A stretch of 28,516 nt of DNA from the IMG/VR virus record IMGVR_UViG_3300010155_000058, positions 1 through 28,516 of that record. The stretch is one strand, 5' to 3'. The position numbers and the translations under genes were made by a program. The notes under the pieces are model-generated. The model was given only the letters and a program-made list of their open reading frames with translations. It made no database searches and had not been told where the DNA came from. This document shows positions 1,886 to 27,352 of the stretch, in pieces (the first letter of the stretch is position 1; each line of letters begins with the position of its first letter). This DNA comes from a virus.

Positions 1886-2194
1886 ATGAAACGAACAGAG
1901 TTCCCAACCGTCGAACCAAGACCATGGGCCAAACACGCAGCCTGCGACCCCCGCAACAACGGGGGACGCGACATGTCCCACCTGTTCTTCCCCACCACCA
2001 CGGTCGGCCGCGCCGACCCCGAGGCGATAGGCATCTGTGAACGCTGTCCCACCATCAAAGAATGTCGCACCTTCGCCGACGGTCTCGGCATGAAGCGTGA
2101 GGTCGGGGTGTGGGGCGGTGTTGACCGTGGTATTAATGCGGCGATGCAGCAGCGTGACAAGATGCGCCGATACCGTGAGGGGATCAATGGCTGA
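1886..2194 (+). CDS. WhiB-family iron-sulfur transcriptional regulator
   Basis: The protein is 102 aa with the diagnostic WhiB cysteine pattern: Cys20, Cys51, Cys54 and Cys60 (C-x30-C-x2-C-x5-C), which binds a 4Fe-4S cluster. The GVWGG turn (residues 74-78) and a basic C-terminal tail (RDKMRRYREG) complete the family architecture. WhiB proteins bind the primary sigma factor and change promoter choice. Phage copies (e.g. TM4 WhiBTM4) are known to interfere with host WhiB function. It is the strongest evidence for an actinobacterial host. The RBS is GGAG 8 nt before the ATG, and the stop overlaps the next gene by 8 nt. Confidence 0.93.
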   Translation: MKRTEFPTVEPRPWAKHAACDPRNNGGRDMSHLFFPTTTVGRADPEAIGICERCPTIKECRTFADGLGMKREVGVWGGVDRGINAAMQQRDKMRRYREGING

Positions 2195-2774: not shown

Positions 2775-2968
2775 AGATGACACTCGAAGAATACGAATCG
2801 GCGATGATGTGCATCTCGGTAGCGCGGAACAATCTGCTGCTGCTGAGCAACCGTCTGACACACACCGAGATCGGGGATGAGCCATCTGAATGCAGTATGG
2901 GCATTCTCAATAGTGTCACCAACGGCATTCCCACTCGAGCATTCTTCGACACTCAGAACACAGCATGA
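2771..2968 (+). CDS. Small hypothetical protein, 65 aa
   Basis: ATG 2771 overlaps the previous stop (ATGA), with AAGGAA about 6 nt upstream. An in-frame ATG at 2720 is less likely because it has no better RBS and adds overlap. The N-terminal half (Met-Thr-Leu-Glu-Glu-Tyr-Glu-Ser onward) is predicted helical. I recognise no motif. It overlaps the start of the PAPS-reductase-like gene, so it is co-translated with it. Confidence 0.65.
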   Translation: MKMTLEEYESAMMCISVARNNLLLLSNRLTHTEIGDEPSECSMGILNSVTNGIPTRAFFDTQNTA

Positions 2969-4582: not shown

Positions 4583-4926
4583 CGATCGAGCAGCTTCTCG
4601 CTGAGGGCCACATCGCCAACCCGGGCGGGGTTGTCGATGTCAACGATTTCAATGCGATGCTGCTCCAGCGGCTGGCCGGCCACGGCACGCTCGATCCGAG
4701 CGTGGTCTTTGGCGGGATCACCATGGCCTTCGAAGATTCTCTGCTGTTCCTGGCCGACCTGATTCTGCGTCCCCTTTCAGAAGCAGGGATGCTTGAGCAG
4801 CCCTACGACACCATCATGATGCGTGTCATCGCTGGCCTCGACCACATCAGGCTTCGTGGCCTTTACGACGCCATGGTGATGTTTGAACAAGACGCTGCGA
4901 AGGCAGCAGAAACGGAGGAAACATGA
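4453..4926 (+). CDS. Hypothetical acidic helical protein; start uncertain
   Basis: The C-terminal ~115 residues (after 4582) are the only coding frame there, with strong hydrophobic helices (Phe-Glu-Asp-Ser-Leu-Leu-Phe-Leu-Ala-Asp-Leu) and an acidic end. The start is unclear: ATG 4453 or 4486, or GTG codons near 4503, all lie inside the upstream HTH gene, so up to 130 nt would be read in two frames. The Gly/Ser/Glu-rich N-terminus predicted from 4453 looks like low-complexity tail or shadow sequence. The stop overlaps the next ATG. Function unknown. Confidence 0.55.
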   Translation: MDTSADSGKDGMEGSQVGGGVHEEGAEQVADGAGAQDTRPSSVAIEQLLAEGHIANPGGVVDVNDFNAMLLQRLAGHGTLDPSVVFGGITMAFEDSLLFLADLILRPLSEAGMLEQPYDTIMMRVIAGLDHIRLRGLYDAMVMFEQDAAKAAETEET

Positions 4927-8539: not shown

Positions 8540-11500
8540 TTACTCCTGAGGGAATCCCCTCTCGACAATGTCTCGCCGTTGCTCGGCCTGTTCAGCCTGG
8601 AGAGCAGCGTTGATCCTAGCTCGAATATCCGCATTTGGGCCTGTCACGGAGGGGGGTTCGAATCCCCCCTGCTGGGATCTGAGAACCTGCTCACGGAGAG
8701 CGTCGGCCCTCACTGTCTGCAAATCGGCAGCGTCGGCCCACACCCCTCCAGCTTCCAGGCCACCTGTGATCTTGGCGAGTTCCTCTTCTTGGCGGAACGT
8801 GTTGGCACGCTGATCGGCTGGGGTCTGGACTCGGAACCCGAGTCCTGGCCCCTGAGCTACAGCCAGAGCACGGAGCCTTGCCAGGAGATCCCCTTCGTTT
8901 GCTGGGGTGAGACCCAGACGTTGTGCCCTGCCAGGATCTGTTGGTCCCATCAGAGGCTCCACGATCCCCTTCCACCAGGGGAACATCGTGTTGAACGTCT
9001 CGGTGAAGAAGCTGTTGCTCTCGGTCACTCCGTCCTGGTAGGTCTGGGCGTCGTACAGGGAACCGAAGGCGAAGTCGGCGGCCTGCTGGGCGAGCCCCAG
9101 CGGGTACGGCGACACTGTGTCGTGGACCGCATCAGGGTTTAGGGTGTGGCCGAGGATGTCCCAACCTGGCCCGAGCATCGACCCGAAGTAGTTCGCTGTC
9201 GAAGCAAACCCGAATCCCTCCTTGTCAAACAGGGGGATGTCGATCAGGTCTGATGGTGGGAGGTCGAAATCGAAAAAGGTGCGTGCCCAGTACGGGGTGT
9301 CCTTGTTCATGTAGTAGTCGGTGCTGGCAGCGAACGGTCCCCACCAGTCGGGGACTCCTGCCCAGCCACGGCCCGTCTCATCATCCGACCCTCCGAAGTT
9401 CTCGGAGGCGGCCCGATGGAGCTTGTGATACCGCATGATCATCTCGGGGCGCTCGTAAGCGACCCGCAGCTGCAGCTCCAGGTTCCGCTTCGTCCACACA
9501 TAGAACGGCACCTTGTTTCGGATCTTCTCTTCAAGGAGTGTCAGGTCGGAGTAGTCGAAGTGGACCCCGACGGCCATGTCCCTGGCAGTCAGCGCCGTGG
9601 CATGATTGTTTGGGTCGTAGTGCTTCACGAAGGCGGCCATCCGCCCGAAGTCCTCGATCGACTCCATGGCCCGCGACCCCATGCGGTTCAGCATGAATCC
9701 TCGAGAGAAGGGATTCATCATCTGGCGCACATATGCCCCCTTGTCCCCGACACCCTTCACCCCACGAACCAGGTTGTGCAGTTCGTTGACAGCGAAGGTT
9801 TCGAGGACGCCGCCCACTTCGTGGGCCGCCTTGAAGTACGGCTGTACCCTGGCGGGGAGAACCTTGATGGCCTCCTCCACGCTATTCGTGCGACGCAGCG
9901 CCTGACGGAACAGGATCCCGTTACGCCCAACCAGGGCGTAAGCGGGGTCGAGTGGGTTGAGTCCGATGATCATGTTGCTCCACACGATCGACATCGCATT
10001 GCGAAGGTGGAAGGTGGGGCGCTGAATCGTGTTGGCCGCCTTCCAATAGTTCACCAGCTTGCTGGTGGTCTCCTCGACCACTCGCAGGGCGAGGGGGTCG
10101 AACATGCCACGAGTGGTGTCGACATAGTTGGCAAACATCTCGACGATAGACGGTGCAGCACCCGCATTCTCCAACGGCCCAGTTCCCAGATTGACCTCCT
10201 CGAACATGCGGAACGGCTGGCCAGGATTCAGATCGACAGTGGTCATGTTCCGCTTCGGGAACCCCTCCTCGTTCAGTTCAAACATCCGTTCGGCGTCCTT
10301 CTTGGCACGAGACAGACCCTTGGCCTGCTTGCGAGCCTCGCCCTTCAGGGAGCTGATGTCGCCGATCTCAACCTGTCGCCACAGCTCGTCGAGCTTGGCG
10401 ACCCCTGCAGCGAATTCCTGCTGGCCCTCATCACTGAAGAGACGAGATCCCGACTTGATATCGATGAAGCGAGGATCATGCTGTCCCGTGAGGAACCGTT
10501 GCAGGTTGATGACCTCGTCGACGATCTGACGCAGAACCTTCGCCTGGCCCGAGGTGACGCCTGCCCGCATGCTGATCTCGCTGGTAGCCCAAGCGGTCAG
10601 ATTGGAGAGGGCACGGTCAGGGTCGAGATTCTCAGCCCACTGGTTCTGGAAGTCCTTAGCCGCTCGCACTGCGGCACGCACCTGGTTCTTGCCGACCTGT
10701 CGCCATGATTTCGCTTCTGGCAGCTCGCCGAGAACCTGGAGGTACTCGGCTATGTTCCGCAGTCGGAGCCACTGGGATTCGGGGAGGAACTTCTCGAGCA
10801 GGGCAGCATCGGCGGTCAGTTCGCCCTCCTTCCAGAGCGCCCTCATCAGCGACCCTCTGCCCTTGCGGACTGCCTGGTGGGTACCAGAGGCGCTGAGGGA
10901 CTCCAAGAGTCGCTCAGAGAGCCTCTCATGGGCCTCTACGATGCTTCTGGCCTCATCAGCCACCCGTGTTGCACGCCCAACATCACCCTTGAGCATCTTC
11001 TTCGCATCCTTGGCCGCCTCCGTGTACGCACGGCCCATCCGCTTAAACTCGGCCAGCAAATCCAGCGACTCCCCCAGCTCAGAATGAACGTACCTGTTGT
11101 GCAGGTGGTAATCCTTGACTCGCTGCACCATCTCATCAGAAACTTCCGCTGGTCGGACCAGCCCGTCCATCGAAGAACCGTTCAGGTCGGCTTCGCGGAA
11201 TCGGTCGACCCAGCGGGCGACGTCGTCCCGCAGCACCCAGTTGTTGTTGGCGGCTCGATAAAACCCTGCTGCCTTCAAAGCCTCAACGCCTGGCGTTGAA
11301 TCACCGATGTCAGCTGACATTCTGCGGGCACCCCTGAGGATCATGTCAGCCACCAGATCACCCATCGTCGCAGCCCCTCTCTTGCTTACAGGGCGCACAG
11401 CGACCATCACCTCATCACCATTCAGAAGGAACCCGTAGCGCTTCTGGCCGTCCATGAACACATCACCAATGAGTCCTTCCCTGCCCATGTGCCCCATGAC

Positions 11501-14500
11501 CTCCAGCGTCTCTTCAGAAATATCTCCCGCCTTGAGCAGATCATCGATCCCGTCTACCCCCCAGGCTCCCCGAACGGGTGACCCCGCATCGAGCAGCTGG
11601 CTGGACTCCCAGGCCAGCCGATCACGGACCTCCGCCAGGCGGCGGATCGTTGTCGGCACAGGCAGTCCCTCCAGGGCATCAGATTCGACCAGCCCCAGCA
11701 CCCAGCCCTCGCTGGGATGCTTGATCTTGCGAACCTCCAGGCGGGGGTCGATCAGCCCGAGGCGGCCCAGCTCCGCCGAGTAGAACTGCAACGACTTCGG
11801 GTCCAGCCCTTCGATGAACAGATGGGGATCGAGCTTGCCATCTGCCGATCGGGCTGCGTACACCCCGAACGGGTTCAGCTGATCAGCCAGAAACTCTGAG
11901 GGGCTTCCCCTGTGCTTCGAGCTGAAAGCAAAGTTCACATGGTCGGCGACCACACGGTCGATCATGGCGAGCTGGCGGCGGGCCACCCCTCGCCACAGAT
12001 CGGACGGGTTCACCAGATCAGGATCACCCACCTCAAGGAGCCCCTTTTCAATAGCGGCGTTCCTCTCAGCGAACTTCTCCAAGTTCCGCAAACGACCAGC
12101 CCCTTCCGCGTCTGCCAGCACATCGTCGAATGTTCTGCGGCCAGCAATGGAGACCTCTTCCAGGTCACGGTGAGTGGGCTTCTGCAGCCGCTGGATAGCG
12201 GGATGCTCCACGAATGCTCGGTACGCAGGGGTGTCGAATCCGTCGATCTCTTCGTAGAGACTGCCGAGGACGACACGGTCCTCGTCGGTCATCGTCGCCG
12301 AAGGGACGAACCCCTCGGGAGACCTCTTGCGAATCCTCATCTTGGTATTGATCTCACCGTTGATGTTCTCCAGCTGGCGCAGCCAGCGCTCAGGTTTCCG
12401 CAGCATGCCTGCCTCCCACGCAGCCTCCGAGGCGAACTTGGATAGATCGACATTCCCAGCCCTACCTGCAGTCAGCGTCGCACTGCCGTTCAGTATCTCC
12501 TCCACCATCTGCCGCATCACGGTGCTTAGTTCATCTCCTTCGGGGGTGGCCTGGGTCCGAACGATCTTGTTCATCAACTCGATGGCCCTGTTAGCGACAT
12601 GCGTGTACTCGTCTGCGATCTTTCCAGCGTCGAGAGGTTTCTGCAGTCTGGTGATCCACCGCCTCACCTCCCTCGAAATCTCAGGAGTGAGAAGAAGTTC
12701 TGGGTCTGCACCAGCCTGTGCCCCAGATCGGAGATCCGAGATCTGGCGCTCGACTTTGCTGATCTGAGACAGGAGAGCACGCTGCTCTTTACTAGCGAGA
12801 AGATCCAGAGTGGCGACCCGATACTGCCTCTTTAGATCCTGAACCAGCTTGCGCTTCTTGGTGATCCGATTACGGATCTTCAGAGATAGAGCCTCGCCCA
12901 TGCGGTTGACCCACCCTTCTTCCATCAAGACCCCAGAGATGAAATTCTGAGTTGCAGAGTCCGAACGGCCGTACCCCCTGGTGATCCCCTGATCCACCGT
13001 GTACGGGCCGATCACATCCTTCCCCTTCAAGTCGGTGATCGTGACTTCGAAGCCACCAGCGGCACCCTTCTGCTGGATCTCCACAGGGCGACCACCGATG
13101 ACGATCGAACCTGTGCGGCTGCCGTCCTCAGCGTCTGGACCCCACTGCACAGTCAGGTGCGTCTGCGGCGGTGCCGCATCCACCCCCAAGCCAGGATCTG
13201 TTGCGGCCGCAGCAGCCCGTTCCCCACTGAGGTCGAGAAGCGCCTCAGCGTTCTCCAGGCGGCTCCGAGCATCCAGCTGGGCGTAGTACTTGTCGACCTC
13301 GTCGAAGACGGCCTTCCTCTCAGCCAGAGCTGCCTCCATGTTGTTACCTTCGAGCGCCTTACGGATACGAAGCTCAGCTTCCTTCAGGCGGAGCACCACA
13401 CCTTCCTTCGTGAGGGCACCATCAGCAGTCTGGAAGGAACGGCCGCCACCGTCGGCCGCCCGATACATCTCCTCGATCGTGCCCTCCAACTTCGTGATAC
13501 GCCTCAGATTGTCCTCGCCCTTCGCTGTTTCCAGAAGCTCACCGAGGCCACGCACATCCTTCTCAGTCAACTCTCGAGAGATCCCCTGCCCCAGCTCCTG
13601 GCCGCCGATGCGGGCACGCTCAGCCTTGATCCCGTCGGCCAGCTCAATCATCGTTTCGGTCAGGCGGGCATCCAACTCACGTCGCTGCTCAGCGACCTGG
13701 GCTTCAATCCTTCTCATCCCGCCCTCGAAGTCGGGGATCTCATTCCCGAGGCGGGCCTTGAACTCGTCGACGAAATGCAACACCTCATCCATGATCTCGT
13801 CACTCAACTCGACCAGCTCCTTGGCCTCCATGCGGACCTGGCCGATCTTGCCGAAGACAAGAGCATCAGCCAGGTGGCTTGAGAAGCCGTACTGCCTCAT
13901 CAACAGATCCTTCGTCGCCACCTGCTGCTGAGCGAACTCCGCCTTGCGAGCCTTGGCCTCGTTGTACTGCTTGGTCAGACGTCCCTTGATCTGCTTGAAA
14001 TCGGGATGCTCCGTGATCGCCTTCGGGAGCTTGACAGTGCTGCCCCCCAGGGTCACCTCCTCGACAGCCCCCTTCATTGGGTTGCCCTCACCGACAGCGA
14101 TGATCTGCTGCACCAGGTCGGCCAGCGGCCGCCCTGCGTACTTCTTGTGCCACAGCGACCCTGTGATCTCATCGACATAGTCTTTGATGTCGATGTTGAA
14201 TCCGTTCCCAGGCTTGCGGTGCCACAGCACCCCTGCCTTCTCGTAAGCATCGGCCAGGGCGAACAGCTCGATGGAGCGTGACATGTCGGAAATGTAGCGG
14301 TCGATGATGATCGAGGCGTCAGATTCGAACAGGCCGAACTCGGGGTCGTCCAGGTACTTGCCCAGGCCCAGCCCAGGGTTTTCCTCGTGGATCACTTCGA
14401 GAGCTTCCCGCATCACACGGTTGATCGCCTCCACGTTCCCGTACTCGACCTCGCCGACGAGGTCGGTGCCGAGCAACATCATTGCGTTGGTGTCGTCTGC

Positions 14501-16612
14501 GTCCCGTGCCAGCGACATCGCATTCGTCCCCGACACCACACGGCCGCGACCGACCGTCCGCTCCTTCACGAAAGCTGCAGCTCCCACATCCGAGGACCGT
14601 CCCTTCGGCCTGCGGCCAGACAGCACCTCCTGCAAGAACCCGAACAGGACATCCTCTTCTCCTGACAGGGGGCGTTTGCCTGCCATGACAATGGCGGCGA
14701 CCTCACCGCCATCGACCGACAGCATGTGGGGCACATAGTTGATCCCCAGATCCTCAATCCGCCTGTTGTACTTCTTGTACTGGGAGAAGAGATCGTGATA
14801 GATCTCCCGCTTGTCCTTTGCGTAGTCGATCAACGCCCGCAGCACCGTGTCGTCGCCAGTCAGCTCGACAGGCGAGTCGGCGAACAGCGCACGGACATGC
14901 GCCAAATCCCAATTGTCCTGCACAGTCTCGACCAGGGCAGTCACCTGGCGGTTGGCCTGCTGAATCGTGATATCTGTGACTGAGTCGTTGACCGCCTCAG
15001 ACACGTTGACGACATGGGCCATCAGGGTGTTGTCGATCTGGCGGAAAGGTTCGCCGATGGCGATGACAGTATCCCGCTCGATCATCGCCGCAGCGATGCC
15101 CTGATTCCTCACCACCTTCTTGAACAAGTGGTCACCGCCGAGCTTGCTCAACCCCTTCCCCTCAACACCCCACTTCGCCACACGGGCAGCGAACTTCGGA
15201 CCACCGAGACGCTTCGCAGCCTCCCACCCTGGGCGGAGGAGAGGCTCCGTAATCGTCTTGCGGAGAAGTCCCCGAGTGCCAGGAATGGTGAACCCTCGCC
15301 CACCGAAGATCGATCCGACACGGACACCTCCGACGGCGTAGCCAGGCAGCATCTTTTTGGTACCAACCCTTGAGCGCTTCCCGAGCAACTCGGGGCGCTT
15401 CACTGTGCGGAGAGCAGCGAAATCAGCATCGATCGTGTGGTAGCGCCGCAGGGAGGCGTCGCCAGCCGTACGGTCATACAGGGTGGCAACCCGCTCTTTG
15501 CCCTGAGCCTCAGAGACGGGAACGAATCGTCCGAACATCTTCTCATCAGGGGTGTGGATCCCTTTTCGGGTTGCGGCCTCCCACACCTCCCGAGAGAAAG
15601 CCTCACTGTCGATGATCGCGCCCTGGATCGAGAAATGTTCATCGTCGGGCATCTTGCTTCTTGCGAGAAGATCATCGATGTTGTCAAACAGCTTCGTGTC
15701 TGTCATCACCTCTTCGACGGCATCGTCGTAGTTGCGCTCGGCGAGGATGGTGAGCTTCTTACCGATCGCCTCGTCTGCCAAGGAGGACACCTCCTTGGTG
15801 GCGGTGGTGCCGAACTCCCGAGCCACCTGCTTCTCCACAACATGAGAAGCAACATCGTCCAGAGCGCCCCTCGCCACATTCGCCTTGGTGGTGGCATTCA
15901 TACCAGCTCCACCGAACGACAAAGCAGTGATCGGGTCAGTAGCCACATCCCCACCGAACGACAGCAGGCCACGGCTGACACGGTTGATCAACCCAGCTCC
16001 AGGTTTCCAACCCGCCAGATCGAGGAGGCTCGACGTGGAGATCACGCCGTGCTCCCCAACGACCTCAGGGCCGAGGCGTTCAAGGAGTGCAGCAGTGTCC
16101 CCAGAGAGAGCAGATCCGTAGTCGGCCATGGTGATCTCTGGGCGATCGTCCTTCCCGAAAAGAGAGTTCTTATCAAAGAAGACGTCGGCGATTCCGAGCT
16201 GGACGGTCTGGCGTCCACGGTCGAGGAACATCAGCACGTTGCCCAGAGCGCCGAGGAACCCGCTGGCGGTTCCTGGCGAGTCGCTCTCCTGCAGAGCATC
16301 CTCTTTCATCTTCAGAATGACCTCTCTGGATTCGTCCGACAGCCCTGGCTGGTTGAGCGCAGCGTCATACTTCCTCATCTGGGTGTTGAACTGGTCCCTG
16401 GCTCGTTGATCGTCTGTGAAGTTGCGACCGAAATTGAGGTCGTTCGGGAGGCCCGTGAGACCCGGGCCGATGGCATCGTCGGACGGCCCGCTTGGCGGCC
16501 GAGGGGTGCTGAAGCTCAAGCCACGGCCAGCTGCCCGACGGCGACGTGACCCACGGGCAATGTCGCCCAAGGGGCCGTCACCGAAAGCGCGATCTACTGA
16601 AGGGAACGTCAT
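8540..16612 (-). CDS. Giant (2690 aa) virion ejection / internal protein
   Basis: This is the largest gene of the window. The product has a basic, Pro/Gly-rich N-terminus (Arg-Arg-Arg-Arg at 23-26), long helical and coiled-coil blocks, an Asn-Tyr-Val-Pro-His-Met loop, and a C-terminal region with Thr-Phe-His-Leu-Arg-Asn-Ala and later Val-Pro-Phe-Tyr-Val-Trp-Thr-Lys-Arg-Asn. Those motifs recur in very large phage internal proteins. The C-terminus is Gln/Ala-rich. Position after two other internal-type proteins and before lysis genes suggests a role like T7 gp16: packed in the virion and injected to build the DNA channel. I do not see polymerase motifs. The start overlaps the upstream stop (ATGA). 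The last ~40 codons carry an antisense tRNA-like palindrome (see 8612-8679). Confidence 0.7.
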   Translation of the reverse strand: MTFPSVDRAFGDGPLGDIARGSRRRRAAGRGLSFSTPRPPSGPSDDAIGPGLTGLPNDLNFGRNFTDDQRARDQFNTQMRKYDAALNQPGLSDESREVILKMKEDALQESDSPGTASGFLGALGNVLMFLDRGRQTVQLGIADVFFDKNSLFGKDDRPEITMADYGSALSGDTAALLERLGPEVVGEHGVISTSSLLDLAGWKPGAGLINRVSRGLLSFGGDVATDPITALSFGGAGMNATTKANVARGALDDVASHVVEKQVAREFGTTATKEVSSLADEAIGKKLTILAERNYDDAVEEVMTDTKLFDNIDDLLARSKMPDDEHFSIQGAIIDSEAFSREVWEAATRKGIHTPDEKMFGRFVPVSEAQGKERVATLYDRTAGDASLRRYHTIDADFAALRTVKRPELLGKRSRVGTKKMLPGYAVGGVRVGSIFGGRGFTIPGTRGLLRKTITEPLLRPGWEAAKRLGGPKFAARVAKWGVEGKGLSKLGGDHLFKKVVRNQGIAAAMIERDTVIAIGEPFRQIDNTLMAHVVNVSEAVNDSVTDITIQQANRQVTALVETVQDNWDLAHVRALFADSPVELTGDDTVLRALIDYAKDKREIYHDLFSQYKKYNRRIEDLGINYVPHMLSVDGGEVAAIVMAGKRPLSGEEDVLFGFLQEVLSGRRPKGRSSDVGAAAFVKERTVGRGRVVSGTNAMSLARDADDTNAMMLLGTDLVGEVEYGNVEAINRVMREALEVIHEENPGLGLGKYLDDPEFGLFESDASIIIDRYISDMSRSIELFALADAYEKAGVLWHRKPGNGFNIDIKDYVDEITGSLWHKKYAGRPLADLVQQIIAVGEGNPMKGAVEEVTLGGSTVKLPKAITEHPDFKQIKGRLTKQYNEAKARKAEFAQQQVATKDLLMRQYGFSSHLADALVFGKIGQVRMEAKELVELSDEIMDEVLHFVDEFKARLGNEIPDFEGGMRRIEAQVAEQRRELDARLTETMIELADGIKAERARIGGQELGQGISRELTEKDVRGLGELLETAKGEDNLRRITKLEGTIEEMYRAADGGGRSFQTADGALTKEGVVLRLKEAELRIRKALEGNNMEAALAERKAVFDEVDKYYAQLDARSRLENAEALLDLSGERAAAAATDPGLGVDAAPPQTHLTVQWGPDAEDGSRTGSIVIGGRPVEIQQKGAAGGFEVTITDLKGKDVIGPYTVDQGITRGYGRSDSATQNFISGVLMEEGWVNRMGEALSLKIRNRITKKRKLVQDLKRQYRVATLDLLASKEQRALLSQISKVERQISDLRSGAQAGADPELLLTPEISREVRRWITRLQKPLDAGKIADEYTHVANRAIELMNKIVRTQATPEGDELSTVMRQMVEEILNGSATLTAGRAGNVDLSKFASEAAWEAGMLRKPERWLRQLENINGEINTKMRIRKRSPEGFVPSATMTDEDRVVLGSLYEEIDGFDTPAYRAFVEHPAIQRLQKPTHRDLEEVSIAGRRTFDDVLADAEGAGRLRNLEKFAERNAAIEKGLLEVGDPDLVNPSDLWRGVARRQLAMIDRVVADHVNFAFSSKHRGSPSEFLADQLNPFGVYAARSADGKLDPHLFIEGLDPKSLQFYSAELGRLGLIDPRLEVRKIKHPSEGWVLGLVESDALEGLPVPTTIRRLAEVRDRLAWESSQLLDAGSPVRGAWGVDGIDDLLKAGDISEETLEVMGHMGREGLIGDVFMDGQKRYGFLLNGDEVMVAVRPVSKRGAATMGDLVADMILRGARRMSADIGDSTPGVEALKAAGFYRAANNNWVLRDDVARWVDRFREADLNGSSMDGLVRPAEVSDEMVQRVKDYHLHNRYVHSELGESLDLLAEFKRMGRAYTEAAKDAKKMLKGDVGRATRVADEARSIVEAHERLSERLLESLSASGTHQAVRKGRGSLMRALWKEGELTADAALLEKFLPESQWLRLRNIAEYLQVLGELPEAKSWRQVGKNQVRAAVRAAKDFQNQWAENLDPDRALSNLTAWATSEISMRAGVTSGQAKVLRQIVDEVINLQRFLTGQHDPRFIDIKSGSRLFSDEGQQEFAAGVAKLDELWRQVEIGDISSLKGEARKQAKGLSRAKKDAERMFELNEEGFPKRNMTTVDLNPGQPFRMFEEVNLGTGPLENAGAAPSIVEMFANYVDTTRGMFDPLALRVVEETTSKLVNYWKAANTIQRPTFHLRNAMSIVWSNMIIGLNPLDPAYALVGRNGILFRQALRRTNSVEEAIKVLPARVQPYFKAAHEVGGVLETFAVNELHNLVRGVKGVGDKGAYVRQMMNPFSRGFMLNRMGSRAMESIEDFGRMAAFVKHYDPNNHATALTARDMAVGVHFDYSDLTLLEEKIRNKVPFYVWTKRNLELQLRVAYERPEMIMRYHKLHRAASENFGGSDDETGRGWAGVPDWWGPFAASTDYYMNKDTPYWARTFFDFDLPPSDLIDIPLFDKEGFGFASTANYFGSMLGPGWDILGHTLNPDAVHDTVSPYPLGLAQQAADFAFGSLYDAQTYQDGVTESNSFFTETFNTMFPWWKGIVEPLMGPTDPGRAQRLGLTPANEGDLLARLRALAVAQGPGLGFRVQTPADQRANTFRQEEELAKITGGLEAGGVWADAADLQTVRADALREQVLRSQQGGFEPPSVTGPNADIRARINAALQAEQAEQRRDIVERGFPQE
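8612..8679 (+). other. tRNA-like fold antisense to the end of the giant ejection gene
   Basis: On the plus strand GATCCTAGC (8612-8620) pairs over 9 bp with GCTGGGATC (8671-8679). Between them is a perfect T-arm-like hairpin, six G, TTCGAAT, six C (8651-8669), and a TCCG...CGGA stem (8628-8631 with 8647-8650, 15-nt loop). No canonical D/anticodon geometry is present, so it is not a normal tRNA. On the minus strand it encodes Gln-Gln-Gly-Gly-Phe-Glu-Pro-Pro in a disordered tail. Confidence 0.35.
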
Positions 16613-19026
16613 CCTAAGAGGTACCTCGCTGGATTGGTGTCATCACTGCCGTCGGGGCGGAGAACCTCGAAGTGGAGGTGGGGAGGCATGACTCCTCCCC
16701 CATGGAGCTTCCCTGAGTTTCCAGAGGCAGCGATGCGCTGGCCAGCCCGCACCGTCTGGGGCTTGATGCTCCCAGCCAGATGCAAGTACTTGAACACATA
16801 TCCGTCAGGGGTGGTAACCCTGACGGAGATGCCGCCAGTATCCGTCCTGTAAGTGGTCAGCTCTCCTGCCTGGACGGCAAAGAGCGGGGTGTTCATCGGG
16901 GTGTCGATATCGATCCCGTGGTGGATTCCTTCGAGGCCAGGATCGGCCCGAGGCGCACCGTACTGCGAGATGATGTTGTAGCTTCCCTCGAAGGGACGAT
17001 ATCCGAAGCTGGTCTGCTGGTCGGTGCCCCCGCCGAACTGCCAGGCAGGAGCATCGTCATCACTCGAGTTTGCCTGATCTTCAGCGAATTTCTTCTCACC
17101 CGTCAAGTACGCCTGCAACCCGTTTCTGACGAACCCACCAGTGAAGGCCCAGTCGTTATGCGCGTAGGCAGAATCGAAGTTGATGCCTCTATCTGCTTCG
17201 TATGTCTCGACTTCCTTACTGTCGGTCATCTCGGCCATGAGCATCTGGGCTTCCGCATACGCATCCACCTCTTCTGTGGTGTCGAACTGGCCTGAGGCCA
17301 GCCCGTCAAGGATGATCCCCGCCACGATCGCCTGCTGGTTGGGGGTGATGTCCTGCTCTGACAGCCAGTTCTCCATGAACCCTGTAGCGATATCAGCCGA
17401 GTTGAAGTCGGCAGCACCACTGTCAGACAGGAGCTGCTCCAGCTGCAGACGGTTCCCAGTGGTCGAAGCTGCTGTCTGCACCCCCACATACCTGTCGATC
17501 AGATCCTGCAGCGACGAACTCAGCTCGAACGCCATGTCCTCTTCGGCACGAGCAGACTCCTCCCTCGTCTCTCTGCGGAACTGATCCAGATCGTTGAGCC
17601 TGGCCTTCTCGTCGGCATCCACCTGAACCATCGTCTGGGCTCGACTCAGACCCGACTCTTCCAGAATAGCATCCAGCTGAGCATTCGAAGCAGTGACCAG
17701 CGTGTGCCGCTGCCTCGCAGCATCGTTGATCGTGGACACCCGCTCCTGCTCATTCTGTCTCATCGCCGAAGCCAGCCCGTGCTGCGCTGCAGCTCGGGCG
17801 ACGTTGCCAGCCATGATCTGAATCTGAGCCTGGCCGACCTCTTCGGTGCCGACCCTGTCGAGGGCGAACTGGGCGTCCTCCCTCAGGTCGGCAAGTAGCT
17901 CGTCTGCCAGGGCAGGATTGTCGGCACGGATGCGATCCATTTCCTGCTGGAACAGATCGGTGGATGCCACCACCTGCCCCTCGATCGAATCCCGAGCGTC
18001 CTGTGCGTTCTTCGTGATGGCCCCCAGGGCGAGCCTGTCGCCCCGCTGCACAGCATCAATCGCTGGCTGCCAGATACCTGGCAGGTCGTCTTGGAAATCC
18101 TGATAGGACTTCTGGGTGATGTCCATGTACCCCTGGATCAGGTTGCGGACCTCAGCTTCGTACTCACCGAATCTCGATTCTACAAGGGCGTCGTAATCGC
18201 TGTAGCCCTGGTTGAGCAGATCGACGTAGGTGGCGTAGGCGGCCTGCGTGTCCTCAACCGTCTTGATGATGCCGTCCTGGGCACCTTGCTCCCACTGTGC
18301 CCACACACCAGCACTGTTCGCCTGCGCCGTCTGGACTTCCCCGATCTTGCGTTCGAGGATCGCAAGCTCGGCATCGTAGGCAGCGGTCGCGTAATACGCT
18401 TCGAGTTCGAGCGCCTGCTGGCGCTGCTGCTCCACACCAGCTATCTGCTGGTCGAGGTCATCCATCCAGAAATCGAAGCTGGACAGCGTGGGTGGCGGGG
18501 GGTACCCCGATCCGCCTCGCCATGATTGACCTGTCGGCTCGGGGGACATGCCAGGTATCCAAGAGAAGATGTAGTCCTTGACGAAGTCTATCCCCTGCTG
18601 GGTGGGCTGAGGTGCCTGAAACCTTGACTGGAGCCCAGACGCTGCCCCTATGTCAGTCTCTGAGGCGAATCTGGGCCTCTGGTCCCCATAGAGGAAGCTG
18701 TAATTGTCCTGGGCGGATCGCATACTCCGCAGCCAGTCCTCCTGCGTTTGGCCTGCTTGCGAGGGGGAAACACCAGGAGTGATCGGTTGCGGTGTGGGCA
18801 TCCACCGTGTACCCATACCCCCGACGCCACCGACGCCACCACCCAGATTGGGATCATAAAGCTGGGGGAGCTGCGTGGTCTGCTCCAGTGCCTGAGCTGC
18901 CCTGACAGCATTCAGACCACTCACCAGCGCATCGGATGTCCGCTGGAGGAGAGTTGGATCTGTGGCGTCTACGGTCATCTGCCGTGAGCGCTGTTGCCCT
19001 CGACGTGGCCGATCGCGGTCGCCCAT
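16609..19026 (-). CDS. Virion ejection protein with C-terminal M23 peptidase (805 aa)
   Basis: Residues 1-~640 are Gln/Ala/Glu-rich helices and coiled coils with a Gly-rich patch near 55-70. The last ~130 residues form an M23 peptidase: His702-x3-Asp706, Tyr-Leu-His749, and Pro-His-Leu-His (His783, His785), with the beta-rich context of LytM domains. A long rod plus wall-cutting domain inside a structural operon points to a virion-carried lysin that opens peptidoglycan during DNA entry, comparable in role to the T7 gp16 transglycosylase or mycobacteriophage tape-measure peptidases. It overlaps its neighbours at both ends (TAATG and ATGA). The domain differs clearly from the endolysin M23, so the two are not recent duplicates. 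Confidence 0.82.
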   Translation of the reverse strand: MGDRDRPRRGQQRSRQMTVDATDPTLLQRTSDALVSGLNAVRAAQALEQTTQLPQLYDPNLGGGVGGVGGMGTRWMPTPQPITPGVSPSQAGQTQEDWLRSMRSAQDNYSFLYGDQRPRFASETDIGAASGLQSRFQAPQPTQQGIDFVKDYIFSWIPGMSPEPTGQSWRGGSGYPPPPTLSSFDFWMDDLDQQIAGVEQQRQQALELEAYYATAAYDAELAILERKIGEVQTAQANSAGVWAQWEQGAQDGIIKTVEDTQAAYATYVDLLNQGYSDYDALVESRFGEYEAEVRNLIQGYMDITQKSYQDFQDDLPGIWQPAIDAVQRGDRLALGAITKNAQDARDSIEGQVVASTDLFQQEMDRIRADNPALADELLADLREDAQFALDRVGTEEVGQAQIQIMAGNVARAAAQHGLASAMRQNEQERVSTINDAARQRHTLVTASNAQLDAILEESGLSRAQTMVQVDADEKARLNDLDQFRRETREESARAEEDMAFELSSSLQDLIDRYVGVQTAASTTGNRLQLEQLLSDSGAADFNSADIATGFMENWLSEQDITPNQQAIVAGIILDGLASGQFDTTEEVDAYAEAQMLMAEMTDSKEVETYEADRGINFDSAYAHNDWAFTGGFVRNGLQAYLTGEKKFAEDQANSSDDDAPAWQFGGGTDQQTSFGYRPFEGSYNIISQYGAPRADPGLEGIHHGIDIDTPMNTPLFAVQAGELTTYRTDTGGISVRVTTPDGYVFKYLHLAGSIKPQTVRAGQRIAASGNSGKLHGGGVMPPHLHFEVLRPDGSDDTNPARYLLG

Positions 19027-20549
19027 TACTGGATCCCGCCGCCACCTAGAAGCTTGACCGCCTCCGCCAAAGCCGCCTGCTGTTGCTGGCGCTGCCGTTC
19101 CGCATACTCCGCAGCCAGCTGCTCCTCCTGCGTTCGGTTCTGACGACCACCCTCATTCGGATCAGTATCGAAGAAGTCGTCCTGGTCGTCAGCATCCTGA
19201 ACCGTCTGCCCACCAGGTGTGGGAATCCACGAACCGATACCCCCGATGCTACCACCGAAGTAGGACGGCGAACCTGGCCCGCCCTGGAACTGGGCGTACC
19301 CAGGTGCCTGCGGGATGAACGGATTCTGCAAATACGGGGACGCTGGCATCAGCGGCCCCGACGGCACACGCACAGGCGGCGGCAGCAACGCCAGCAGATC
19401 CTGAATGGTCTGATCCCCCTCGAACTGAATCAGGCCAGCTGCAGCCTGGGAACGGGCCGTAGCAATCTCCGACTGCTTCTGCTCCTCCAACCGAGCCGCC
19501 GTCGTATCGAGTTGAGTGAGACCAGTCTGGAGCTGGCCTGTCAGCTGATTGCGCTGCTCGGCCACCTGGGTGTCGATGCCCCCAACCTTCTTTGCATGGA
19601 TACCTGAACGGAGCAGACCCCGTTCGAGGCTGCCTCGCTGGGCCTGGCCGAGCGCAGCTTCCCGCTGGCGGTCCAGCTGCGTACTCAGCTGACGGGCGTA
19701 GTCCCCGAGCTGGTTCCTTTGCAACATCAGCTCGGCCCCTGTCATGCCGTACCTTGCAGCGATCCCATCGATCAGCATCTGTAGCTCCTGGGCGGTCAGA
19801 TCACGGAGCTGGGCAGTGTTCTGGAGTCCCTCGATGGTGGTTTGAGCCTCTCGGAAGGCATCCGCTTCGGCGGTTGGCCCTGTGCCTGGGAAGGACTGGC
19901 CTGGACCCGAAACGTCAGTGGTGGTTCCACCTCCAGTTACAGCGTCACCACCTGTGGTGCCGTCATCGACGGAAGGTGGAAATCTTTCTGGTTCATCAAA
20001 AATGATCGGCGGCGTCGATGGCGGCGGATCCCGCCATTCTTCCTCGTCGGTCACTTCTGTCGACACACCCCCGCCCGTAGCTGCAGCAGCACTCTTCTGC
20101 TGCGACGCATACCAATCAGCAAGCCCCTGCAAACGCGCAGTCTCCGCCTGGCGGCGACGCTGCTCCTTAGCCTCCTGCAACGCATACCAATCAGCAAGCC
20201 CCTGCAAACGCGCAGTCTCCGCCTGGCGGCGACGCTGCTCCTTAGCCTCCCGATTAGCCTCCCGACGCTTGATGTCGTCGGCCTGAGCCTGCATGCGAGC
20301 AGCTGTAGCCTGCTGGGCAGAAGACAATGAGGCGGGGTAGCCCCATTGGTCGGTTTTCGGAACCTTCACATAGGTTTTGGAGGGTCGGAGTATCGGCCCC
20401 GCAGCAGCCCTGCGGGCAAGGTCGTCGGCCTGGGCCTGCATGCGAGCAGCTGTAGCCTGCTGGGCAGAAGACAATGTCCTGGCACCACCACCTCCAGCAG
20501 ACTTCATCGGAACCTTCACATAGGTTTTGGAGGGTCGGAGTAATGACAT
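19026..20549 (-). CDS. Repeat-containing ejection / internal virion protein (about 507 aa)
   Basis: I prefer ATG 20549 over the TTG at 20558 because it keeps the 18-nt distance to the GTTGACAT element seen before two other genes. The N-terminal 150 residues are built of repeats: two copies of Leu-Arg-Pro-Ser-Lys-Thr-Tyr-Val-Lys-Val-Pro plus an Ala/Gln helix, then two nearly identical 25-residue helices (Glu-Ala-Lys-Glu-Gln-Arg-Arg-Arg-Gln... Asp-Trp-Tyr-Ala). A disordered Thr/Gly/Pro stretch follows, then a coiled coil (about 225-370), and a Gly/Pro-rich end. It is the first of three large ejection-type genes in one operon. Function is inferred from position only. Confidence 0.65.
   Translation of the reverse strand: MSLLRPSKTYVKVPMKSAGGGGARTLSSAQQATAARMQAQADDLARRAAAGPILRPSKTYVKVPKTDQWGYPASLSSAQQATAARMQAQADDIKRREANREAKEQRRRQAETARLQGLADWYALQEAKEQRRRQAETARLQGLADWYASQQKSAAAATGGGVSTEVTDEEEWRDPPPSTPPIIFDEPERFPPSVDDGTTGGDAVTGGGTTTDVSGPGQSFPGTGPTAEADAFREAQTTIEGLQNTAQLRDLTAQELQMLIDGIAARYGMTGAELMLQRNQLGDYARQLSTQLDRQREAALGQAQRGSLERGLLRSGIHAKKVGGIDTQVAEQRNQLTGQLQTGLTQLDTTAARLEEQKQSEIATARSQAAAGLIQFEGDQTIQDLLALLPPPVRVPSGPLMPASPYLQNPFIPQAPGYAQFQGGPGSPSYFGGSIGGIGSWIPTPGGQTVQDADDQDDFFDTDPNEGGRQNRTQEEQLAAEYAERQRQQQQAALAEAVKLLGGGGIQ
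20106..20250 (-). repeat. 75-bp direct repeat (2 copies) coding a 25-aa helix
   Basis: Positions 20106-20175 and 20181-20250 are identical over 70 nt, with a 75-nt period (25 codons), so the reading frame is kept. The unit encodes a basic Arg/Gln helix ending Leu-Ala-Asp-Trp-Tyr-Ala. Nucleotide identity, including silent positions, indicates a recent duplication or ongoing homogenisation. Confidence 0.92.
20274..20542 (-). repeat. About 150-bp imperfect duplication coding two 50-aa units
   Basis: Two blocks recur. One, at 20274-about 20330 and 20421-about 20477, codes the Leu-Ser-Ser-Ala-Gln-Gln-Ala-Thr-Ala-Ala-Arg helix. The other, at about 20357-20392 and 20507-20542, codes Leu-Arg-Pro-Ser-Lys-Thr-Tyr-Val-Lys-Val-Pro. 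Offsets are 147 and 150 nt. The DNA between the blocks differs, so the duplication is older or the linkers diverge faster than the blocks. Confidence 0.88.
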
Positions 20550-20567
20550 CTCATCCAATGGGGGCGG

Positions 20568-20575
20568 ATGTCAAC
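20568..20575 (-). promoter_or_regulatory. GTTGACAT element before the 507-aa ejection gene
   Basis: The octamer lies 3 nt after the TAA of the upstream gene and exactly 18 nt before ATG 20549. The same octamer has the same 18-nt distance before the genes starting at 22100 and 22805. It resembles a sigma-70 -35 box, but there is no room for a normal -10 before the start codon. Confidence 0.55.
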
Positions 20576-20577
20576 AG

Positions 20578-21447
20578 TTACGGGATTGTCGCCCACACCT
20601 TGCAAGTCATGTCCTCGATGTAGGCAGGAGTGTTCGCATAGTGGATATCGACCCACATGCCATCTGTTGCCCCCTCCAGAACAGTATTGAGATTCCCCCG
20701 TCTCAACCTGTAGTACCTGTTTGCCAAAGCGGTTGATCCGACAGCTCCGACATGCAACCCCGCAAGGTTGGTCACAGTGCATTTATCCCCCTTGGCTGTC
20801 ACCGCATACAGGTAGGCGTCGAACTCTGCTGCCACATGGGTGGCCAGCAGGTTCACATCGAAAGTGCGGATTGTGAAGTTCGCCTGATCGTTCCACTGCT
20901 CGAACGACACATGATAGGTATCCACATCGGTGAGGGTGAGGTTTGTGGTGGATAGGACGACCGTCCCAGTGAACCACTTCGTGGTGTAGTAAGCGTCCGT
21001 AAAGACATGCACCACATTCCCATTCGCATCAGTGGTGGAGTCGTCAGTAGTCACCGCATCGATGGTGAGCACGTCTGTATCTGATCCCGTTTCTACACCG
21101 CTGACACGGTCCACAGTGGTGCCCGTCACCGTGATCGTTCCCGCAAGGTCCGACCCTGCGTTGACGACGATCATCAGCTTCCCAATCCCCACAGTCACAG
21201 TGATATCGGTTGGCGCAGAATCGAGAGCTGACCCTGTGTCGAGAGACAGGATCCCACCATGCATGTTCGACTCAGAGGAACGTGAAGGTGCTGGGTCGTA
21301 GATGTCCATCGCCATGTGATCTGCCGAGATGACCGACGTGTTGAGATGCTCTTCGAGTGCAATGTTGTTGCGGGAGAGGGCCGTCACGAGTCTCTCGAGA
21401 GAGGAGGCGACCATCTTGATCGGGAAGTAGAACTTGCGCTGAGCCAT
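20578..21447 (-). CDS. Tail appendage / structural protein, 289 aa
   Basis: The start ATG overlaps the stop of the preceding gene (TAATG). The N-terminal 45 residues are helical (Lys-Met-Val-Ala-Ser-Ser-Leu-Glu-Arg-Leu-Val), and the rest is beta-rich with many Thr/Val/Asp repeats (Thr-Ile-Thr-Val-Thr-Gly-Thr). That is a common pattern in fibre or decoration proteins, with Trp/Tyr-rich strands near the end. I find no named family. It belongs with the two fibre-like proteins transcribed just before it. Confidence 0.55.
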   Translation of the reverse strand: MAQRKFYFPIKMVASSLERLVTALSRNNIALEEHLNTSVISADHMAMDIYDPAPSRSSESNMHGGILSLDTGSALDSAPTDITVTVGIGKLMIVVNAGSDLAGTITVTGTTVDRVSGVETGSDTDVLTIDAVTTDDSTTDANGNVVHVFTDAYYTTKWFTGTVVLSTTNLTLTDVDTYHVSFEQWNDQANFTIRTFDVNLLATHVAAEFDAYLYAVTAKGDKCTVTNLAGLHVGAVGSTALANRYYRLRRGNLNTVLEGATDGMWVDIHYANTPAYIEDMTCKVWATIP

Positions 21448-22100
21448 TAGGCGAAGTTGAAGACGGTCAGTTCCTGGCGGTTGAGGGTCGAGGTACCCGA
21501 ACCTCCCGTTCGGGTGTGAATGGTGAACACATTAGTTCCCTCAGTCAACCCCGTGAACCAGTGGTATGCCGTGATCCGTGCGGCGTCGTTGGCCGCACCC
21601 GACTCGTACCACAGCGGATAGTCGTCCGAGGGGGCGACGGTAGTGTCTCCCGAGACGTCGATGGAGGAAAGCGTTTCTCCCCCTGTGGTGTCGCTGCTCA
21701 TCTGCTGCGCCCAGAGGACTAGACAAGTGGTGCCTGTGGCAATAGACACCGAAGGTGCGTTGGTCAATTCAGCGTATGACCCTGACGCTGTGGAGTCGGC
21801 ACCGCCAGTATCCGTCCCTGTTGTCACGGTGGTGCCGCCACCATGATTCTGACCGTCCACATACGCTTTGATCGACTGCTGGGTGGCCAGATCAGTGGCC
21901 GAATCCGAAACCAAATTATCCTCGTCGAGGACAGGCACGACCAGGTCGATCGTCCCGTCACCATCCTGGTAGGTCGCAGCGATGAATGTCTCAGTGTTGT
22001 CCGAGAACATCGCCCCAACCTGATCCTGGGTCAGCTCCGAAGTGTCGAGGGATCCACCGACTACCCGTCTGCGAGATTGGTTACTGTTACCGAGAGTCAT
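21447..22100 (-). CDS. Tail fibre-like protein B (paralogue of the next gene upstream)
   Basis: The 217-aa protein shares with the 225-aa protein at 22128-22805 a central Leu-Asp-Glu-Asp-x-Leu-x-Ser-Asp-Ser-Ala-Thr-x-x-Ala-Thr-Gln-Gln-Ser-Ile-Lys-Ala-Tyr-Val-Asp block, and a C-terminal beta domain with Tyr-x-x-Trp-Tyr-Glu-Ser, Gly-Leu-Thr-x-Gly-x-Asn-Val-Phe-Thr-Ile and Thr-Ser-Thr-Leu-x-Arg-Gln. The Ala-Thr-Gln-Gln-Ser-Ile-Lys-Ala-Tyr-Val-Asp segment is frequent in phage fibres. The N-terminus differs from the paralogue, so the two probably attach differently but share a binding head. A GTTGACAT element precedes it, and the RBS AGAGG lies 5 nt upstream. Confidence 0.65.
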   Translation of the reverse strand: MTLGNSNQSRRRVVGGSLDTSELTQDQVGAMFSDNTETFIAATYQDGDGTIDLVVPVLDEDNLVSDSATDLATQQSIKAYVDGQNHGGGTTVTTGTDTGGADSTASGSYAELTNAPSVSIATGTTCLVLWAQQMSSDTTGGETLSSIDVSGDTTVAPSDDYPLWYESGAANDAARITAYHWFTGLTEGTNVFTIHTRTGGSGTSTLNRQELTVFNFA

Positions 22101-22118
22101 ATCGCCTCTTAAGCGAGA

Positions 22119-22126
22119 ATGTCAAC
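22119..22126 (-). promoter_or_regulatory. GTTGACAT element before fibre gene B
   Basis: The octamer sits 1 nt after the TAG of the upstream gene and 18 nt before ATG 22100. It is part of the recurring GTTGACAT set. Confidence 0.55.
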
Positions 22127-22127
22127 A

Positions 22128-22805
22128 CTATGCGGACCACTGAACCACATACAGGTTCTGACGTTTTAATGTAGAAGTGCCAGCAGCGTTTCCCCTGCGA
22201 GAATTGATTGTGAACACATTCGATCCACCCGTCAGCCCCTCAAAGAGATGTGCGTGGAACTGGTGGGTAGCATCACTTGCCGCCGAAGATTCATACCAGG
22301 TGGCGTACTGATCAGTCGCCGCCACCGTAGTAGCACTTGAAACGGCAGGGCACTGGTGAGTTGAAGACCCTGCCGTGTCATTCGACATCTCGGCGCTCCA
22401 CATTGCCAGTGCCGTAGTGCCCGTCGTGATCGTCACTGCAGGTGCCCCTGTCAGCGCAACATAGGCATCAGAAGTGGTGGTTCGGGTAGAGGTGTCAGTG
22501 TCTGAACCTATGGTGATGGCCGCTGCTGCCGCATCGACATACGCCTTAATCGACTGCTGGGTGGCTACAGCAGTCGCAGAATCCGACGACAAGGTGTCCT
22601 CATCCAAAGCATCCACAATCGTCAAAGACGGGAAAGTGATGCCCGAAGCATGCAGCACCAGCGCAGCCGTCATCGCCCTCGCACCATCCACATGCACCAC
22701 GCTGTTGGTGAGGAATGTCACCAGGTCAGCGAAGTTGGCATTGACCTCAGTGGCGTCGGCCGTAGTCGAGTTTGCAAACGTGTTCGTTACTGAAGGGGTT
22801 GCCAT
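22128..22805 (-). CDS. Tail fibre-like protein A, 225 aa
   Basis: The N-terminus is Ser/Thr/Ala-rich, with Val-Asn-Ala-Asn-Phe-Ala-Asp-Leu, a motif common in the N-terminal parts of phage fibre proteins. The shared Ser-Asp-Ser-Ala-Thr...Ala-Tyr-Val-Asp block and a beta-rich C-terminal domain follow, ending Leu-Tyr-Val-Val-Gln-Trp. It is a paralogue of the 217-aa gene directly downstream, with conserved motifs in the same order, so gene duplication followed by N-terminal divergence is likely. It would be a receptor-binding or appendage protein at the tail. The GTTGACAT element begins inside the stop codon of the tail-tube gene. Confidence 0.65.
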   Translation of the reverse strand: MATPSVTNTFANSTTADATEVNANFADLVTFLTNSVVHVDGARAMTAALVLHASGITFPSLTIVDALDEDTLSSDSATAVATQQSIKAYVDAAAAAITIGSDTDTSTRTTTSDAYVALTGAPAVTITTGTTALAMWSAEMSNDTAGSSTHQCPAVSSATTVAATDQYATWYESSAASDATHQFHAHLFEGLTGGSNVFTINSRRGNAAGTSTLKRQNLYVVQWSA

Positions 22806-22823
22806 TTCATCTCATAGTCGACA

Positions 22824-22831
22824 ATGTCAAC
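22824..22831 (-). promoter_or_regulatory. GTTGACAT element before fibre gene A
   Basis: The first G of the octamer is the last base of the upstream TAG stop. ATG 22805 lies 18 nt further on. It is part of the recurring GTTGACAT set. Confidence 0.55.
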
Positions 22832-25260: not shown

Positions 25261-25262
25261 CG

Positions 25263-25330
25263 CACATCCCCAAGGAGTCGAACCCTGTCTTACAGCTTTG
25301 GAGGCTGCTACGTTCCCCAACGTGGGATGT
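25263..25330 (-). tRNA. tRNA-Trp (anticodon CCA)
   Basis: All arms fold. The acceptor is ACATCCC/GGGATGT (7 bp), with a short D-arm of CGTT-GGGG-AACG. The anticodon arm is GCAGC-CTCCAAA-GCTGT, with CCA after U33 and A37. The variable loop is AAGA, and the T-arm is CAGGG-TTCGACT-CCTTG. The discriminator is G, as usual in bacterial tRNA-Trp. CCA is not encoded (the next bases are CGA). At 68 nt it is compact. It lies on the same strand as the capsid operon, so it should be cut out of the structural transcript. Confidence 0.88.
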
Positions 25331-26378: not shown

Positions 26379-27293
26379 CTAGGAGCCGACAGGAGCCTCT
26401 AGTGTTCTGAGGGCGAAATTGAAAGCGTCCTCGACAGACTCGATCCGTTCCTCGAAGGGTGTCTCCCCAGTCGGGGATCCTCCCTGTTTGGTGGTCGAGG
26501 TCTTGGCCGCCTCTGCCCTCATCTGAGCTTGCTGACTGGCACGGAGTAGCAGCGATTCGAATGCGACCTCAACGTCTGTGGTCCCAGTCTTCTTCGCATG
26601 CTGGAGCACGAGGTTGCGGTTCTCGTCGCTGAGACGACTCCCGTACTTCTGCTCCAGGTCGGCGAAGACCCTGGTGACCGCATTGGCCGAGTCACTCTTC
26701 CTTGCTGCTACCACATCAGGGTGCTTGTCGAGAGCTTCTTCTAAACGCGACTGGACACGTTCCTCCACGTCCGCTTCCGTAAAGAGCTTCAGCCCTTTGT
26801 CGGGGATCGTCCCATCCTGGGGGATGATCTCCGCCTTCGCAGCCAGGTACTTCGAAAACCCCAGAGGGTCTTCTCGGAATTCGGTGTAGAAGGTGGCAGC
26901 TTCCGTGTTCAGTTGTCGCTCTCGGGCGAGTTCCTGAGTCTTTCTCGTGTAGTCGGCACGCATCATTGTGCCGTCCCGCATCTCCTTCAAAGAGATGTCG
27001 GTGGTGACACCATCGACGAGAATCTCAACCTGCTGGTCCCACCACTCGGCAGAGCCGAGTTCGAGACCAGCGGACTGCTCACCACCATCAAGGTTGGTGA
27101 GGAGATCGTCGAGTTCACTGGCTGGCGCTTGTTCATCCCGATCGGATGAGGCTGCTTGTTCACCGTCCGTCTGGGCTTCTGATCCCGCAGATGACATGTC
27201 TGCGTTCACTTCGGGGGAGCTTGTCTGGCCCCCCTCCGCTTCAACGGCCTGGGCGAAGGCATCCTCTAGTGACAGAGCTGAGTCGTCTGGCAA
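26379..27293 (-). CDS. Scaffolding protein (TTG start)
   Basis: TTG 27293 is the start because AAGGAGG lies 7 nt upstream and no ATG fits. The 304-aa product is acidic (Ser/Glu/Asp/Gln-rich) for the first ~80 residues, then has an alpha-helical middle with Lys/Arg/Glu heptads, and a short C-terminal helix (Phe-Asn-Phe-Ala-Leu-Arg). Acidic disordered head, helical body, and position between portal and capsid genes match phage scaffolds, which direct capsid assembly and then leave. No protease motif is visible. Confidence 0.78.
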   Translation of the reverse strand: MPDDSALSLEDAFAQAVEAEGGQTSSPEVNADMSSAGSEAQTDGEQAASSDRDEQAPASELDDLLTNLDGGEQSAGLELGSAEWWDQQVEILVDGVTTDISLKEMRDGTMMRADYTRKTQELARERQLNTEAATFYTEFREDPLGFSKYLAAKAEIIPQDGTIPDKGLKLFTEADVEERVQSRLEEALDKHPDVVAARKSDSANAVTRVFADLEQKYGSRLSDENRNLVLQHAKKTGTTDVEVAFESLLLRASQQAQMRAEAAKTSTTKQGGSPTGETPFEERIESVEDAFNFALRTLEAPVGS

Positions 27294-27307
27294 TGTTGTA
27301 CCTCCTT

Positions 27308-27326
27308 GGAACCCGATCTGGGTTCC
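27308..27326 (-). promoter_or_regulatory. 7-bp hairpin immediately upstream of scaffold SD
   Basis: GGAACCC and GGGTTCC form a perfect 7-bp stem with a 5-nt loop (27308-27326). On the minus strand the stem ends right before AAGGAGG, the SD of the scaffold gene. It could set scaffold expression or mark an mRNA processing point. There is no T-tract. Confidence 0.5.
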
Positions 27327-27344
27327 TCATTACAGAAGGAGGGA

Positions 27345-27352
27345 ATGTCAAC
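27345..27352 (-). promoter_or_regulatory. GTTGACAT element at the portal / scaffold junction
   Basis: The octamer overlaps the portal stop TGA. It is 51 nt before the scaffold TTG, unlike the 18-nt spacing at the other three sites, with the 27308-27326 hairpin between. It shows the octamer is not tied only to the 18-nt distance. Confidence 0.4.

Follow-up and report, generated by a model that had tools for sequence, protein, structure and literature searches.

We describe here a two-box element that recurs at late gene junctions of a group of uncultured podoviruses, which probably infect actinobacteria. Its unit is GTTGACA (box 1) followed after 14-18 nt, mostly 15, by T-RR-G, that is, TGAG or TAGG (box 2). 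It is oriented in the sense direction only, with a near-constant spacing within each lineage and with conserved positions at the start of the late operon, after the terminase gene, between the portal and scaffold genes, and at tail genes. With a probability of roughly 0.6, we read it as a dispersed promoter-like element of the late genes that places the start of the mRNA at the conserved T or immediately downstream of it; both the promoter identity and the 5' end at T|R we infer from sequence patterns. So read, the motif would provide a readable code of late expression for these viruses, predicting start codons, transcript units, and the mode of translation.

The element in the window and in related viruses

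The window, the whole 28,516-nt stretch of virus record IMGVR_UViG_3300010155_000058 analyzed here, carries on its minus strand an operon of structural genes encoding portal, scaffold, major capsid, tail, tail-fibre-like, and M23 peptidase-domain proteins. The octamer GTTGACAT occurs in the window five times against 0.68 expected, a count reached by none of 100 dinucleotide shuffles of the window, and all five copies are on the strand of the structural genes. Four of them are located at gene junctions of the operon, and the fifth, which is missing from an earlier note on this DNA, is probably due to chance. The features concerned are the following.

1886..2194, plus: WhiB-family regulator, beside the DnaB helicase gene
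4637-4644, minus: fifth copy of GTTGACAT, opposite a plus-strand ORF, without box 2
19026..20549, minus: 507-aa repeat-rich protein, start ATG 20549, downstream of tail site t3
20550..20553, minus: box 2 TGAG of t3, 15 nt after box 1, abutting ATG 20549; no Shine-Dalgarno (SD) sequence
20568-20575, minus: GTTGACAT of t3, with box 1 at 20569..20575
21447..22100, minus: tail-fibre-like protein of 217 aa, paralogous to that of 225 aa
22101..22104, minus: box 2 position of tail site t2, degenerate (CGAT), abutting ATG 22100; no SD
22119-22126, minus: GTTGACAT of t2, with box 1 at 22120..22126
22128..22805, minus: tail-fibre-like protein of 225 aa, downstream of tail site t1
22806..22809, minus: box 2 variant TGAA of t1, 15 nt after box 1, abutting ATG 22805; no SD
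22824-22831, minus: GTTGACAT of t1, with box 1 at 22825..22831, one base common with the upstream TAG
26379..27293, minus: scaffold protein (phrog_3927, E 4.6e-8), downstream of the portal-to-scaffold element
27301-27307, minus: SD AAGGAGG after the leader hairpin, followed by the scaffold start TTG 27293
27308..27326, minus: leader hairpin GGAACCC-AGATC-GGGTTCC, beginning 3 nt after the T of box 2
27326..27329, minus: box 2 TGAG of the portal-to-scaffold element, 16 nt after box 1
27345-27352, minus: GTTGACAT of the portal-to-scaffold element, with box 1 at 27346..27352, overlapping the portal stop TGA

The distance of 18 nt between three copies and the ATG codons at 20549, 22100, and 22805, reported in the earlier note, proved exact on recount, as did the 51 nt from the fourth copy to the scaffold TTG and its overlap with the portal stop. 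The copies also touch or nearly touch stop codons as had been described: TAG and the octamer share the G at 22831, 1 nt separates TAG from the copy ending at 22126, and 2 nt separate TAA from that ending at 20575, while the portal stop (27348-27350) is inside the fourth octamer. The three tail genes do not form an unbroken series: between the second and the third there is a 289-aa gene (20578-21447) without a copy. ATG 20549, preferred in the earlier note, was judged a better start than the alternative. The 225-aa and 217-aa proteins are 49% identical over 164 aa, and thus their two copies of the octamer may be partly non-independent.

Relatives were collected by capsid, portal, and terminase searches. 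Contigs L009, L065, and L066 of the same species extend the late operon upstream, and a related group (L062, L067, L070, L071, L206, L207, L069, L208, L209, and others) has a portal 41-51% or a capsid 49-69% identical to that of the window. In this group GTTGACA again appears at gene junctions, with no antisense copy in the intergenic gaps scored. In L209, one copy of the element is also found where the early operon starts. Box 1 is TCGACA or CTGACA in some lineages, having drifted at the same junctions to GTCGAC[A/G/T] in L206 and L207 and to CTGACA in L208 and L069. The sense enrichment of the full pattern is limited to the portal-close group, where 43 sense and 7 antisense matches, with some redundancy, were found; more distant capsid or portal relatives showed no such enrichment (15 versus 11 and 19 versus 22), and the search by terminase alignment yielded only relatives at 25-29%, with no excess of the element at their junctions. 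The element is shared by about ten lineages that have diverged in sequence, and it stands before unrelated genes.

The octamer alone, taken as the unit in the earlier note, should be replaced by GTTGACA-N15-TRRG. In the alignment of sites, box 2 is T[GA][AG]G, located 14-18 nt downstream of box 1. It is present in 36 of the 43 curated sites (shuffle mean 3.9, maximum 11, in 2000 shuffles), and the spacer is 15 nt in 21 of these 36. Because box 2 was part of the pattern by which some of the curated sites had been gathered, an unbiased test free of gene models was run with spacers of 14-18 nt: box 2 follows 19 of 26 sense copies of GTTGACA, with 2.7 expected, compared to 1 of 10 antisense copies and to 2 of 25 copies of [ACT]TTGACA, with 2.3 expected. 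Since TTGACA without the preceding G is at the background level, this G belongs to box 1; GTCGAC alone was weakly informative (17 of 84). The spacer is 14-16 nt in the window species, L062, L206, L207, and L209, and 16-18 nt in L067, L070, L071, L069, and L208.

Several other observations were made on these sequences. A 75-bp tandem duplication (98% match) occupies window positions 20100-20250 within the gene of the 507-aa protein, and more repeated blocks are found in this gene at about 20280-20540. The structural operon includes a tRNA-Trp (CCA) gene (25262-25330, minus) that separates the capsid gene from the tail gene following it, and no such gene was found in the nine relatives tested. 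A PAPS-reductase-like auxiliary gene is located at 2965-3774 on the plus strand (phrog_424, E 1e-43). At L066:1800-1925, two tandem long inverted repeats (AACCCTCTTCTCAGACTC...GAGTCTGAGAAGAGGTTT) separated by TTCCTATAGCTATA look like paired bidirectional terminators; they are located some 130 nt before the gene that opens the late operon.

Leader classes downstream of the conserved T

By the sequence 3' of the box-2 T, the sites sort into three classes, a few of their start codons (for example, in L067 and L206 a) having been picked mechanically and thus possibly being off. In class 1, the T is followed by exactly 3 nt (GAG, GAA, GAT, AGG, or AGC) and then by ATG, with no SD. This class comprises 10 sites in 4 lineages, among them t1, t2, and t3 of the window and the site of the first late-operon gene of the window species (L066:2049). 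The 18-nt spacing of the earlier note is the class-1 layout GTTGACAT-N14-T-RRR-ATG; the same spacing recurs in three other lineages, and the distance to the start codon is kept at all 10 sites.

In class 2, AGGAGG is located 0-2 nt after the T, and the start codon 10-16 nt after it. Class 3, found mostly at the portal-to-scaffold junction, has a leader of 30-54 nt with an SD near its end and a stem-loop starting 0-6 nt downstream of the T; in the portal-to-scaffold leaders of L067, L206, and L207 the stem starts at the very first base. All 12 leaders tested fold better than their shuffles (z from -1.6 to -5.5, mean -2.7), and the folded class-3 leaders are unrelated in sequence. The window copy between portal and scaffold, singled out in the earlier note as the odd one, is a regular member of the set with a long hairpin leader (-12.7 kcal/mol, z -3.1), and the mRNA 5' end predicted for it is at 27328. 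In all three classes, a 5' end no further downstream than T|R is required for the ATG, the SD, or the hairpin to remain intact.

A candidate late promoter and the rival explanations

We propose a late promoter with the octamer as its upstream half, GTTGACA-N14-18-T|RRGRR, in which GTTGACA would be bound by a phage-modified host transcription complex and the first base of the mRNA would be the conserved T or one shortly downstream of it. In the window species, near-leaderless mRNAs (GAG-AUG) would then be made from the tail genes and from the gene that opens the late operon; other genes would yield mRNAs with the SD as their first bases, and the scaffold-capsid mRNA would have a stabilizing hairpin at its 5' end. 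Box 1 would be positioned at approximately -22 to -17, unlike the -35 box of sigma-70. This unusual geometry, with box 1 about 17-22 nt before the start, is the main weakness of the promoter reading, as the distance fits neither sigma-70 nor T7-type polymerases, the spacer being too variable for the latter. If the 5' ends are indeed at T|R, the element would represent a promoter of the bacterial type that lacks the -10 box, with a bearing on both the redirection of actinobacterial RNA polymerase by phages and the leaderless translation of virion genes. We further suggest, tentatively and with the odds rather against it, a new type of promoter in actinobacterial phages, composed of GTTGACA as the sole recognition box, near -22 to -17, and of T-1/R+1, with no -10 box, and used by a host RNA polymerase that is remodelled by a phage factor, possibly WhiB, with a 5' end precise enough for leaderless, SD-first, or hairpin-first mRNAs.

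WhiB proteins, invoked in the earlier note as possible directors of the RNA polymerase, are a family of actinobacterial regulators, and therefore the WhiB gene of the window points to an actinobacterial host. The 44-kb relative L207 also encodes a WhiB protein near its replication helicase (G001:7672-7884). It is a matter of speculation that the phage WhiB acts as a co-regulator remodelling sigma-A. A prophage search of genome contigs with the portal alignment, aimed at the host, gave no relative. No gene for a sigma factor or an RNA polymerase, the T7 type included, was found in the window or in the 44-kb relative, the PF00940 search having had no positive control and the contigs being possibly incomplete. 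An N4-type virion polymerase using hairpin promoters was also considered and rejected: the 2690-aa protein of the window (8540-16612, minus) has neither RNA polymerase motifs nor convincing structural relatives, is unmatched in Pfam and PHROG, and has no convincing match in the PDB. In L207, the equivalent end of the structural operon encodes a 1375-aa protein with no PHROG match.

The main rival to a promoter is a signal for RNA processing or translation, where a factor or nuclease acting on GUUGACA in a polycistronic late mRNA would cut it 15-18 nt downstream at U|RRG and produce the same 5' ends. It would account for the strand specificity of GTTGACA, for the location of most sites inside one operon next to stop codons, where read-through could transcribe them, and for the fixed relation to the ATG, SD, or hairpin, which is an RNA-level feature. 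However, a back-to-back pair of elements exists in L209 (L263:61 minus, 75 plus) with 11 bp between the boxes, copies occur right after terminator-like hairpins with T-runs at L062:4796 and in L069, and the window species has a copy that opens its late operon, about 130 nt downstream of two terminator-like hairpins in tandem. Each of these would require an extra, unseen promoter under the processing hypothesis, and together they favor a promoter over an RNA element. Moreover, a hairpin in the spacer, rejected as a general signal, is striking in L062 and only marginal over the 43 sites, its level being reached by 4 of 300 shuffles and by 24-26 of 300 when the order of purines and pyrimidines is kept. 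We regard processing as improbable, though it deserves to be taken seriously.

An ordinary host sigma-A promoter would combine TTGACA, which corresponds to the consensus -35 hexamer, with a weakly conserved -10 box 15-18 nt further on and with a start in or after the start codon; the 14-18 nt resemble a -35/-10 spacer that varies by lineage. Yet the match to TATAAT at spacers of 15-19 nt over the 43 sites is the same as in shuffles (2.70 versus 2.67), TANNNT is at the -10 distance in 1 of 43 sites, a consensus promoter scanner gave no matches at element sites, and the G before TTGACA is required. With a start 6-8 nt further down, moreover, class-1 mRNAs would begin past the ATG, class-2 mRNAs would have no SD, and the class-3 hairpin would be truncated, which makes this explanation quite unlikely. 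The statement of the earlier note that the element is unlike a normal promoter thus holds for the -10 box, absent at the normal distance, and leaves room for a promoter with unusual geometry. Repressor sites similar to stoperators, asymmetric, intergenic, and containing TTGACA, at which a repressor would halt elongation, were suggested by the single orientation with transcription and the dispersed distribution that the element has in common with stoperators of cluster A mycobacteriophages (PMC6550527). We consider them very unlikely, as stoperators are not characterized by a box 2 at constant spacing, by a link to start codons and leaders, or by confinement to late junctions, and neither a repressor nor an integrase was identified among the proteins scanned. 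Finally, the paralogy of the two tail-fibre-like proteins could mean that chance and duplication of neighboring tail genes together with their upstream regions created the pattern. This is hardly credible, given the same layout before unrelated genes in some ten diverged lineages, and the gene-model-free test refutes duplication as the sole explanation.

Relation to known systems

The nearest described kinds of elements are the SAS and ESAS of cluster K and the stoperators of cluster A. Like the element described here, SAS and ESAS are short repeats in one orientation, a few nucleotides before some start codons, and contain AGGAG; ESAS are thought to hold promoters. With GTTGACA-N15-TRRG as its unit, the element is found among structural genes, lacks a -10 box, and does not generally have an inverted repeat. 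SAS, in contrast, is an uninterrupted 13-mer, GGGATAGGAGCCC, confined to the non-structural half, and ESAS combines SigA-like -35 and -10 hexamers 17-18 bp apart with inverted repeats of 15-17 bp. The TAGGAG core is all that the element and SAS have in common. Inverted repeats within the element are just marginally above shuffles, and 17-bp repeats of the SAS/ESAS type were not seen. Stoperators are contiguous asymmetric repressor sites of 13-14 bp, oriented with transcription, dispersed over the genome, and mostly not associated with promoters, and no second box or fixed distance to a start codon has been described for them (PMC6550527). Since the element departs from SAS/ESAS in sequence, location, and inverted repeats, and from stoperators in its second box and its fixed distance to the start, it is set apart among the dispersed junction elements of phages. 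An Rfam scan of the window gave only a tRNA above the gathering score and no match to the element.

T7 late promoters are uninterrupted sequences of constant length, strongly conserved and read by a phage-encoded polymerase. The element is similar to them in having several strand-specific copies distributed over the late operon, ahead of the scaffold/capsid genes and of tail genes, with a predicted purine start after T/A and with leader hairpins; it differs by its spacer of 14-18 nt, variable in sequence and length. In Actinobacteria, leaderless mRNAs of genes without an SD start at or near the AUG, and the host promoters of such mRNAs have a -10 box TANNNT just upstream. Class-1 sites resemble actinobacterial leaderless genes in the absence of an SD and in the predicted mRNA start near the AUG, whereas, unlike in host leaderless promoters, TANNNT is absent just upstream of the start at 7 of the 10 sites.

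The element is absent from the junctions of the closest named phage genome, ct52p938 (MW202803). The late operon of this phage has a different repeat, a 17-bp near-palindrome CGTTTCYGAYGGAAACG at positions 606, 2824, 5187, and 11990, with three of the four exact copies at gene junctions; when up to two mismatches are allowed, it has nine matches versus 0.01 expected.
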